Shown: positions 30,145 to 32,254 of the stretch, one piece after another
Position numbering within the stretch: the stretch's first letter is position 1
Layout: each line of letters begins with the position of its first letter
IMG/VR virus record: IMGVR_UViG_3300044640_002114
Span: 1-41,169 of that record
Origin: a virus
Direction: 5' to 3' (one strand)
Length of the DNA stretch: 41,169 nt
Position numbers and translations under genes: made by a program
Notes under the pieces: generated by a model
What the model saw: the letters and a program-made list of their open reading frames with translations, nothing else
What the model was told of the DNA's origin: nothing
The model's database searches: none

Positions 30145-30290
30145 ACATCAGAAGTCTACTGATAAGCAGAATTAGAGAATTAAGAGAGTTAAAAGCAACA
30201 ACCTCACAAGGCAGTTCACTGAGAAACATTGAGAGCCTGGAGTTATTTAATATCCAACTTTACTACTATATTTTTAATAAGGGGATCTAA
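30126..30290 (+). CDS. Small hypothetical protein
   Basis: This 54-residue protein begins MANESVDIRSLLISRIRELR and is helical and charged, ending in a Tyr-rich stretch (LYYYIFNKGI). It overlaps the previous gene by 19 bases and its stop overlaps the endolysin start (TAATG). No family is recognised. Confidence 0.5.
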   Translation: MANESVDIRSLLISRIRELRELKATTSQGSSLRNIESLELFNIQLYYYIFNKGI

Positions 30291-30934
30291 TGAAAAAATT
30301 TTTAATGTGGCTTTTAGGATTATTTAAAGCAGACACTCAAAAGCCCGTTGTCACAATTCCCAATAGTCCGGAAGCTCCGGATAGTTCAAACACAAAAAGC
30401 GAAATTAAAAAGGTTGCTTTAATCGTGGGCCATGGAAATGGCGATCCAGGCGCGCAAAGTAAAAATAAAAAAATAAACGAGTTTGATTACAATTCAGAAG
30501 TTGCAAAATATGTCTCTGAATCAAAGGATCATGGGAAAATTGTAAAGGTTTTTTATCGTGGGAAAAGCGGGATTGTTGGCGTGGCCCTTGAGGCAGTTGC
30601 TTGGGGTGCCGATCTTTCGGTGGAGCTTCACTTGAATTCCTTCAATAGTATCGCTCAAGGTTGCGAGGTTCTTGTTTTAAAAGGGGATAATGCCTCCGCT
30701 GAAATTGGAAGATCATTCGCTAAATCATTCACTGAGACATTTAAAAGAATGTTACGCAGAGAAAAGGGAATCAATTGGATATCGGGTAGTGACAGGGGCG
30801 GTGCAAGTCTTAAAGCAGTTTCTCCAATTAAAAGATCTATCCTGGTTGAGCCTTTGTTTGTTGATAATGATGCCGAATATCTCGAACCAAAAAGATATGC
30901 AGATTGGTTTATTGGTTGGCTTAAGAGTATCTAG
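30290..30934 (+). CDS. N-acetylmuramoyl-L-alanine amidase endolysin (Amidase_3)
   Basis: This 214-residue enzyme cleaves the amide bond between MurNAc and the peptide in peptidoglycan. Zinc ligands are visible as H48 ('VGHGNGDPGA'), E64 ('NEFDYN') and H114 ('VELHLNSF'), with the catalytic Glu at 187 ('ILVEPLF'). The N-terminus (MKKFLMWLLGLFKADTQKP) is a short hydrophobic segment followed by a Pro/Ser linker. It may be a membrane anchor or signal-anchor-release type start, which would permit Sec export without a classical holin. It sits in the early operon, far from the small membrane proteins at 22.1-23.3 kb. Confidence 0.85.
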   Translation: MKKFLMWLLGLFKADTQKPVVTIPNSPEAPDSSNTKSEIKKVALIVGHGNGDPGAQSKNKKINEFDYNSEVAKYVSESKDHGKIVKVFYRGKSGIVGVALEAVAWGADLSVELHLNSFNSIAQGCEVLVLKGDNASAEIGRSFAKSFTETFKRMLRREKGINWISGSDRGGASLKAVSPIKRSILVEPLFVDNDAEYLEPKRYADWFIGWLKSI

Positions 30935-31203
30935 TGAAATTTATTTCAAGTGATCCGTGCATTGCTTGCAATTATTTCCAGGTAAATAGTGTTTGCTTTC
31001 ATCACCTTTACACGAGAAAAGCGCACAGAGAACTTGAGAACGTAAAGTGGAACATGATTCCAGTATGTCAAAGATGTCACAATCTTTTTCACAACAAGGG
31101 AACGAAAGTCATGGCCGATAAATTTATCTCGGTGCACTTTTGGTTGGTTCGGAATGGTTGGGAGTTTTGTGAGATATCTAAAAAATGGTTTCATGAAAAG
31201 TGA
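30934..31203 (+). CDS. HNH-type zinc nuclease-like protein
   Basis: In this 89-residue protein, 'PCIACNYF' and 'PVCQRCHNLFHNKG' supply a zinc-binding frame. 'CFHHLYTRKAH' supplies the HH of an HNH-like beta-beta-alpha fold. Similar small proteins in phage recombination or replication regions are single-domain HNH nucleases. GTG start within the previous stop (TAGTG). The exact role (recombination junction processing or nicking) cannot be read from the sequence. Confidence 0.65.
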   Translation: MKFISSDPCIACNYFQVNSVCFHHLYTRKAHRELENVKWNMIPVCQRCHNLFHNKGTKVMADKFISVHFWLVRNGWEFCEISKKWFHEK

Positions 31204-31216
31204 TCGCGAGGTGTTT

Positions 31217-31318
31217 ATGGATTTAGTTGTCTTATGGGTTTGCAGTTTGGTCGCGCTTGCTTTTACGTTGCCCCTTTTATGGACGACTATTTTCCTAACA
31301 CTGGAGTATTTAAAATGA
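31217..31318 (+). CDS. 33-residue single-TM peptide
   Basis: A short frame, MDLVVLWVCSLVALAFTLPL followed by LWTTIFLTLEYLK, is almost entirely a membrane helix. GAGG precedes the ATG at good spacing, and its TGA overlaps the next ATG (ATGA). It lies two genes after the endolysin. It could be a tiny holin or a regulator peptide. Confidence 0.5.
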   Translation: MDLVVLWVCSLVALAFTLPLLWTTIFLTLEYLK

Positions 31319-31527
31319 GTGATCTTTATTTAATTGAAAAACATTATGACGACCTCGCCATGAATTATTACTCAGAAGCAGTTTGTGAAAGTTGCGAGGA
31401 TGAGAGCATTAAAGAAAGGGATCTTGAGTTTATCAAGGTAGGATCTAAAAAAAGTTTATTAGTTTGTAAATGTTGCAAGGAAGATCTTTGCGAGGATGAT
31501 GGCGATGAAAGTCCTGGACTTATTTAG
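31315..31527 (+). CDS. Small zinc-ribbon protein
   Basis: This 70-residue acidic protein has 'VCESCEDES' and 'LVCKCCKEDLCED', a probable zinc ribbon. The ATG at 31315 overlaps the stop of the TM peptide. A longer in-frame extension upstream is just a shadow of that peptide. Its end overlaps the methyltransferase start by about 20 bases. Function unknown. Confidence 0.55.
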   Translation: MSDLYLIEKHYDDLAMNYYSEAVCESCEDESIKERDLEFIKVGSKKSLLVCKCCKEDLCEDDGDESPGLI

Positions 31528-32254
31528 TGGTATCGGTGGATTTTCCTTAGGACTTGAAAGAGCGGGATTTGAAACAGTAGCATTTTGCGAGATCGACGAA
31601 TTTTGCCAAAAGGTTTTATCTAAAAACTTTCCAGGTAAAAAAATATTTAACGACATTAAGAAAATAACAAAGGAAGAGATAAATGGGCTTGGACAAATTG
31701 ACGTTGTATGTGGAGGATTCCCATGTCAACCATACAGCATTGCAGGTCAAAAAAAAGGTAGACAAGATGACCGCGATCTCTGGCCGGAAATGTTTAGAGT
31801 TATACAGGAATCAAAGCCCAATTGGGTCATTGGTGAAAATGTTGCTAACTTCATCGGCATGGAGTTCACCCGTTCGAAAATTGACTTGGAAAGTGAAGGC
31901 TACATCGTGCAACCATTTACTATTCCAGCTTGTGCCATCGGAGCTCAACATAGAAGAGATCGAGTTTGGATTATTGCCTACCTTGACAGCAATGGACTCA
32001 GCAGAAAAGCCAATGCCTCCGAGAAACAAAACAACAAAGGAAAGCGGGAAAGTGATGGGTGGGCAGAAACCTCCGTTGATTTCGGTTATTGGTGGGCCAA
32101 TCAATCCGACATGGGCCGAGCTATTCATGGGTTTTCCCGAGAATTGGACAAATATAGAAAGCATAGAATTAAAGCATTAGGAAACGCCGTTGTTCCAGTG
32201 ATTCCAGAAATAATTGGAAGGGCGATAATGGAAAGTGTGGGGAATAGAAAATGA
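31505..32254 (+). CDS. dcm: DNA cytosine-5 methyltransferase
   Basis: This 249-residue enzyme adds a methyl group to C5 of cytosine using S-adenosylmethionine. Motif I is 'DLFSGIGGFSLGL' (5-17). The catalytic loop is 'GGFPCQPYS' with C74, 'GENV' is at 110-113, 'QHRRDRVW' at 148-155, and the C-terminal 'ALGNAVVP' at 224-231. It is shorter than most family members, because the target-recognition region between 155 and 195 is very small. ATG 31505 is preferred on spacing from GAGG. It probably shields phage DNA from restriction. A second reading frame runs through most of the gene. Confidence 0.88.
   Translation: MKVLDLFSGIGGFSLGLERAGFETVAFCEIDEFCQKVLSKNFPGKKIFNDIKKITKEEINGLGQIDVVCGGFPCQPYSIAGQKKGRQDDRDLWPEMFRVIQESKPNWVIGENVANFIGMEFTRSKIDLESEGYIVQPFTIPACAIGAQHRRDRVWIIAYLDSNGLSRKANASEKQNNKGKRESDGWAETSVDFGYWWANQSDMGRAIHGFSRELDKYRKHRIKALGNAVVPVIPEIIGRAIMESVGNRK
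31683..32180 (+). CDS. Overlapping frame inside dcm, methyltransferase-associated protein
   Basis: This 165-residue frame lies entirely within dcm in another frame. It is not random. 'GSLVKMLLTSSAWSSPVRKL' is followed by 'TWKVKATSCNHLLFQLVPSE', 'EIEFGLLPTLTAMDS' and 'GGPINPTWAELFMGFPENWT'. I recognise this order of blocks from phage proteins annotated as methyltransferase-associated or C-terminal parts of cytosine methyltransferases. An internal ATG at 31767 is a possible shorter start (137 residues). The product may be a recognition or accessory subunit. Recognition is from memory and its expression is inferred. Confidence 0.5.
   Translation: MGLDKLTLYVEDSHVNHTALQVKKKVDKMTAISGRKCLELYRNQSPIGSLVKMLLTSSAWSSPVRKLTWKVKATSCNHLLFQLVPSELNIEEIEFGLLPTLTAMDSAEKPMPPRNKTTKESGKVMGGQKPPLISVIGGPINPTWAELFMGFPENWTNIESIELKH

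Follow-up and report, generated by a model that had tools for sequence, protein, structure and literature searches.

Is a second protein encoded in another reading frame of this methyltransferase gene, and what could such a protein do? The window, meaning the whole 41,169-nucleotide stretch analysed here (IMG/VR record IMGVR_UViG_3300044640_002114, positions 1 to 41,169), comes from what is probably a temperate tailed phage, with genes for a major head protein, head-tail connector, terminase, tail proteins and an integrase. A preliminary description had placed a C5-cytosine methyltransferase at 31505-32254 and a second frame, open for 165 codons, at 31683-32180, and both ORFs were found at these positions. 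The methyltransferase frame is referred to as frame 0 and the second one as +1. The features of the locus are:

31505..32254, + strand: C5-cytosine methyltransferase, frame 0, 249 aa (PF00145, 1.8e-50; phrog_363, 7e-77)
31514..31543, + strand: motif I (LDLFSGIGGF), 5' of the overlap (translation, invariant columns)
31670..31674, + strand: AAGGA, ribosome-binding-like, 8 bases 5' of the internal ATG (a weak statistic taken alone)
31683..32180, + strand: +1 ORF, 165 aa, entirely nested in frame 0, proposed second subunit (phrog_1008, 2.2e-19; shuffles; relatives)
31712..31738, + strand: motif IV (GGFPCQPYS) with the catalytic cysteine, within the overlap (translation, invariant columns)
31835..31843, + strand: motif VI (ENV), within the overlap (translation, invariant columns)
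31878..31940, + strand: +1 residues 66-86, block LTWKVKATSCNHLLFQLVPS, confident beta hairpin (AlphaFold block means 74-87)
31946..31975, + strand: motif VIII (QHRRDRVWII), within the overlap (translation, invariant columns)
31965..31997, + strand: +1 block FGLLPTLTAMD, LPTP-type element (alignments)
31985..32137, + strand: frame-0 residues 161-211, mostly disordered, site expected for the recognition domain and motif IX (AlphaFold)
32103..32150, + strand: +1 block NPTWAELFMGFPENWT, motif IX-like segment (hhalign 97%, E=9e-11; M.HhaI collinearity)
32174..32197, + strand: motif X (ALGNAVVP), frame 0 (translation, invariant columns)

Frame 0 was identified as a C5-cytosine DNA methyltransferase by the ordered motifs I, IV (PCQ), VI (ENV), VIII and X; its gene has an alternative start at 31496. 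The AlphaFold model (77 sequences) has a catalytic core with pLDDT 97-98, and Foldseek matched the model to M.HaeIII and M.HhaI. In M.HhaI-type enzymes the interval between motifs VIII and X contains the variable region and motif IX, which jointly form the small DNA-reading domain (PMC3404938). The window methyltransferase does not hold these two elements between VIII and X in one chain: the stretch of ~50 residues that separates the two motifs (residues 161-210) had pLDDT values of about 43-57 by block, and no match to motif IX was found in frame 0 of the window gene when both frames were scored. Of the core motifs, frame 0 has I-VIII and X.

The +1 protein matches phrog_1008 (2.2e-19) and phrog_26627, with no Pfam match. 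All three sequence blocks quoted for it in the preliminary description are present, and their relation to the enzyme, given there as an overlap with motifs VI to X, could be refined: the first block lies between VI and VIII, the second on the end of VIII, and the third where motif IX is expected. The LPTP-type element occurs as a single copy in the window ORF and is repeated in many of the aligned relatives. The AlphaFold model is poor overall (62.7); it shows a confident hairpin (residues 66-86) as well as a helix spanning residues 142-149, and Foldseek gave nothing usable in the PDB and no fold match. No credible family was found for the +1 family in a PDB-sequence profile search or in Pfam and NCBIfam scans. 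Among 78 members of the family, PADLOC gave weak matches to methyltransferase models in three, and no Pfam match to a nuclease was found. Ribosome-binding-like sites of five bases were detected in 62% of loci against a background of 31%, a weak statistic.

Several properties of the overlap strongly support, at the level of sequence, a second protein encoded in the shifted frame, with dual coding of about 500 bases. When the synonymous codons of the window gene were shuffled among themselves, keeping the frame-0 protein, +1 was free of stops in 0.1% of shuffles, and in each of 15 relatives (16 genes with the window) this happened in at most 0.1%. Disrupting stops, which the preliminary description had proposed to look for in the +1 ORF of close relatives, were searched for there and none were found. 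All 19 loci retrieved through the +1 protein matched it in a frame shifted by +1 relative to a methyltransferase ORF. Selection on +1 was removed by fetching loci with methyltransferase proteins alone (6 + 80 = 86), and all 86 relatives had, in the same relative frame, a +1 ORF that matched the profile. In 84 loci that were outside the profile construction, with 40 shuffles each, the real +1 proteins averaged 158 bits, compared with 50 for the shuffles, and exceeded all 40 shuffles in 84/84 loci, although the loci are related and such counts are not independent events.

Contrasts drawn within a gene depend less on the kinship of loci. Normalised codon entropy at conserved residues was 0.94 before the overlap, 0.76 within it and 0.95 after it (p=2.5e-7). 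In 120 viral loci selected solely by the frame-0 pattern EP[DN]VGRVA[DNH]GxP, in which any GTN codon was allowed for the two valines, both codons were GTG in 120/120 and 120/120 loci, while GTG accounted for 135 of 446 valine codons in the non-overlapping part close to the start of these genes. The use of GTG at both sites fixes a tryptophan at two +1 positions. A two-way test of the motif IX stretch showed that +1 is the more conserved frame (0.68 vs 0.52 for frame 0) and that frame 0 is also partly constrained. The idea that the frame-0 stretch EPxVGRVAxGxPxRVDR is a mere shadow of +1 was consequently kept only in part. Each frame is conserved beyond what the other imposes, as in a same-strand overlapping gene pair. 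The shuffles, the codon entropy and the GTG fixation establish dual coding as far as sequence allows, and the suggestion of true dual coding over roughly 500 bases was thus borne out by stop avoidance, by synonymous constraint confined to the overlap and by +1 conservation beyond the demands of frame 0.

The segment absent from frame 0 appears to be located at the end of the +1 protein. By hhalign profile-profile comparison, its C-terminus (NPTWAELFMGFPENWT) aligned with a segment that actinophage-type methyltransferases encode in frame (97%, E=9e-11, 23 columns). The collinear part of M.HhaI is residues 274-307, which cover motifs IX-X and end in YKQFGNSVV. This homology, together with the collinearity, indicates that motif IX forms the end of the +1 protein; taken alone, the motif IX segment scored only 5.3 bits in the M.HhaI alignment, behind a strong core match.

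When both frames were scored at each locus, 99/101 window-type loci had motif IX in +1 only, the exceptions being L007, where it is in both frames after a frame break, and L084, which is cut by the contig end. The motif was in frame 0 only in 47/47 actinophage-type loci, and a canonical motif IX was in frame 0 in 78/82 streptococcal-type loci. A DNA pattern for WVEWLMG[FY]P retrieved 119 loci from bacterial genomes, of which 113 read it only in +1, overlapping the methyltransferase ORF, and the remaining six were frame-broken, split or in-frame cases; since this set and the actinophage-type set were fetched by motif IX itself, they show its position and not its frequency. The pattern FVEWMMGLP in viral contigs was in the methyltransferase ORF in 47 loci and in +1 in about 60. 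In the split variants L110, L247, L256 and mycobacteriophage Peaches gp77/gp76, frame 0 ends after motif VIII and both motifs IX and X are on the +1 ORF. These comparisons demonstrate, as read from the genes, that motif IX has been exchanged between frames among relatives.

The split variants (Peaches gp76 being the +1 member), whose +1 ORF overlaps the methyltransferase only in part, are also the only exceptions found to the lack of stand-alone +1 homologues. The absence of homologues outside dcm overlaps, which the preliminary description had regarded as evidence against a second gene, was therefore nearly complete. If the +1 product is a subunit that works only with this enzyme, stand-alone copies are not expected, and their absence was not counted against dual coding.

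We consider it probable that the two polypeptides of the nested frames form one methyltransferase of the alpha/beta kind, like M.EcoHK31I, with motif IX and probably recognition coming from +1. Frame 0 would provide the core, the cofactor site (motifs I-VIII) and motif X, with neither an ordered recognition domain nor motif IX. Initiation at the internal ATG at 31683, behind AAGGA, would yield a separate +1 protein of 165 aa, whose C-terminus would be the missing motif IX and whose middle part would probably supply or complete target recognition. Both products would then associate into one active methyltransferase, which could modify phage or host DNA. Dual coding and the division of motifs between the frames are demonstrated in the genes; from these we infer that the +1 ORF is translated, that its product binds the frame-0 protein and that it takes part in recognition. 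The preliminary proposal that frame 0 lacks a proper recognition region, which the second frame completes, is supported as a mechanism by the predicted disorder in the AlphaFold model and by the motif IX homology. The points against a two-chain enzyme are the poor +1 model with no fold match, the low score of the M.HhaI segment, the partial conservation of frame 0 in the motif IX stretch, and the presence in other types of a frame-0 motif IX beside a constrained +1 ORF.

Two-polypeptide methyltransferases are an already known kind of enzyme. M.EcoHK31I of E. coli (YGGCCR; Lee, Kam and Shaw 1995, cited after PMC3404938) is a C5-methyltransferase of two polypeptides, of which the large one has motifs I-VIII and X and the small one only IX (PMC3404938). 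The window gene has the same division of motifs. M.EcoHK31I is part of a bacterial restriction-modification system, whereas the window gene belongs to a phage, with no restriction enzyme identified next to it; the predicted recognition domain of M.EcoHK31I is on the large subunit, while the corresponding region of window frame 0 is present but mostly predicted to be disordered. The small M.EcoHK31I ORF reportedly lies nested in the large one, in another frame. M.AquI consists of alpha and beta subunits split within the variable region, the small one having motifs IX and X and half of that region (PMC3404938). Like the enzyme proposed here, it is a single methyltransferase assembled from the products of two neighbouring ORFs, and L110 and Peaches gp77/gp76 look similar to it; unlike M.AquI, the window keeps motif X in frame 0 and its small ORF is fully nested.

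Homologues of +1 nested in dcm in the same frame are found in PHROG 1008 ('DNA methyltransferase') and among the internal genes of Paenibacillus larvae phages Lily and Diva, annotated singly as hypothetical or methyltransferase; neither a function nor a dual-coding test was found for them in the literature searched. Out-of-frame coding of a second protein within a phage methylase gene is also known from ShiLan, a mobile insertion in the methylase genes of actinophages that encodes an HNH nuclease (PMC11855218). A homing element of this type was rejected for the present locus, which has no insertion and no nuclease family match, and where the overlap spans the conserved catalytic core.

Constrained +1 ORFs were also found in methyltransferases that have their own motif IX. 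In 82 complete M.HhaI-like genes of the streptococcal type (L472, L475 and L476-L555), the +1 ORF had a median of 160 open codons vs 63 expected from shuffles, and was longer than 95% of shuffles in 81 of the 82. Synonymous entropy was 0.44 inside it and 0.71-0.73 outside (p=2.8e-10). Distant pairs had a +1 identity of 0.50 vs 0.30 expected. This ORF usually starts from a conserved ATG at gene position 152, with GGAG upstream, and has about 110-130 codons. Homology of the streptococcal-type and window-type +1 proteins, proposed from a profile match (97%, E=8e-11), was dropped, as synonymously shuffled controls scored higher (98%, E about 1e-13) and the likeness is explained by frame-0 homology. 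In the actinophage-type loci the +1 ORF is constrained without a motif IX, real sequences exceeding all shuffles in 46/47. Motif IX is thus not the sole function of such ORFs in general. We tentatively suggest that a nested +1 gene could be a general and old feature of phage C5-methyltransferases, even complete ones, with a primary role other than motif IX, and that the window arrangement could have arisen when motif IX moved between frames. If so, the +1 protein may control or retarget its enzyme.

The presence of these ORFs beside a frame-0 motif IX, and the failure of the rest of the +1 protein to match any known family, would also fit a genuine protein whose task has nothing to do with methylation, such as counter-defence or host takeover, overprinted for space or co-inheritance and with motif IX as a minor part. 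We regard this as unlikely, since the +1 ORF was found only with C5-methyltransferases, its C-terminus and the motif IX of the enzyme itself trade frames, and the +1 ORFs of the split variants carry motif X too. With ribosomal frameshifting, +1 would instead encode a different C-terminus for the methyltransferase: slipping into this frame beyond motif VIII would join the core, the LPTP block and motif IX in a single chain. Such a product would be without motif X, and the conserved +1 sequence starts far upstream, over motifs IV-VIII, where a frameshift product has no need of it. The internal ATG with AAGGA in the window, and the strongly conserved ATG with GGAG in streptococcal phages, also argue for a separate start, making frameshifting very improbable.

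The reading in which +1 conservation is a by-product of frame-0 conservation or base composition draws on the roughly 50 bits that synonymously shuffled genes average against the +1 profile, and it fully accounts for the likeness between streptococcal-type and window-type +1 proteins. For the window family it is contradicted by the real sequences, which score above every shuffle in all 84 loci, and by synonymous codons that are restricted within the overlap and freer outside, so that we give it hardly any credence.

The nested pair of the proposed two-chain enzyme is present in hundreds of other phage and prophage genes. Single cases had already been annotated, in Paenibacillus phage Lily as the 'g62 internal gene' and in E. 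coli phage K1ind1 as a pair of overlapping genes both called 'DNA methyltransferase'. Relatives of the window gene from E. coli phages include K1ind1 gp32/gp33 and one in BASEL phage Bas73, and the gene is also carried by Lacticaseibacillus phage. Within the literature searched, it is new that such genes are spread over phages and prophages from many phyla, that dual coding is demonstrated for them, that their frame arrangements form a series, and that a constrained +1 ORF also lies within the complete methyltransferases of streptococcal phages. Long same-strand overlaps with both frames conserved are rare and difficult to prove, and the hundreds of loci available here permit clean tests; one enzyme made from two frames of one DNA stretch would be directly assayable by methylation. 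The results suggest that for many phage methyltransferases the single annotated protein is only half of the enzyme, which is relevant to their expression and typing. The in-frame, nested and split arrangements form a natural series for a protein segment moving between reading frames.

Some individual loci deviate from these arrangements. Frame breaks in L007 and L159 shift motif IX from the +1 ORF to the methyltransferase ORF, which thereby loses motif X, the L007 break being near a CA repeat; they represent either sequencing errors or natural frame switching. In L195, from a Synergistaceae MAG, an insert after motif III contains an HTH-like stretch and an HNH-like motif, and the methyltransferase continues in +1, so that this is probably a mobile insertion in a dual-coded gene.

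In the window, an ORF of 89 aa just upstream of the methyltransferase (30934-31203) has a CxxC...HH...CxxCH pattern like that of HNH nucleases, with no Pfam match at 0.001. A small ORF in another frame (31318-31527), with two zinc-ribbon-like CxxC pairs, overlaps the start of the methyltransferase gene. The ORF at 30290-30934 encodes an N-acetylmuramoyl-L-alanine amidase (Amidase_3, 1.5e-15), a likely lysis enzyme.
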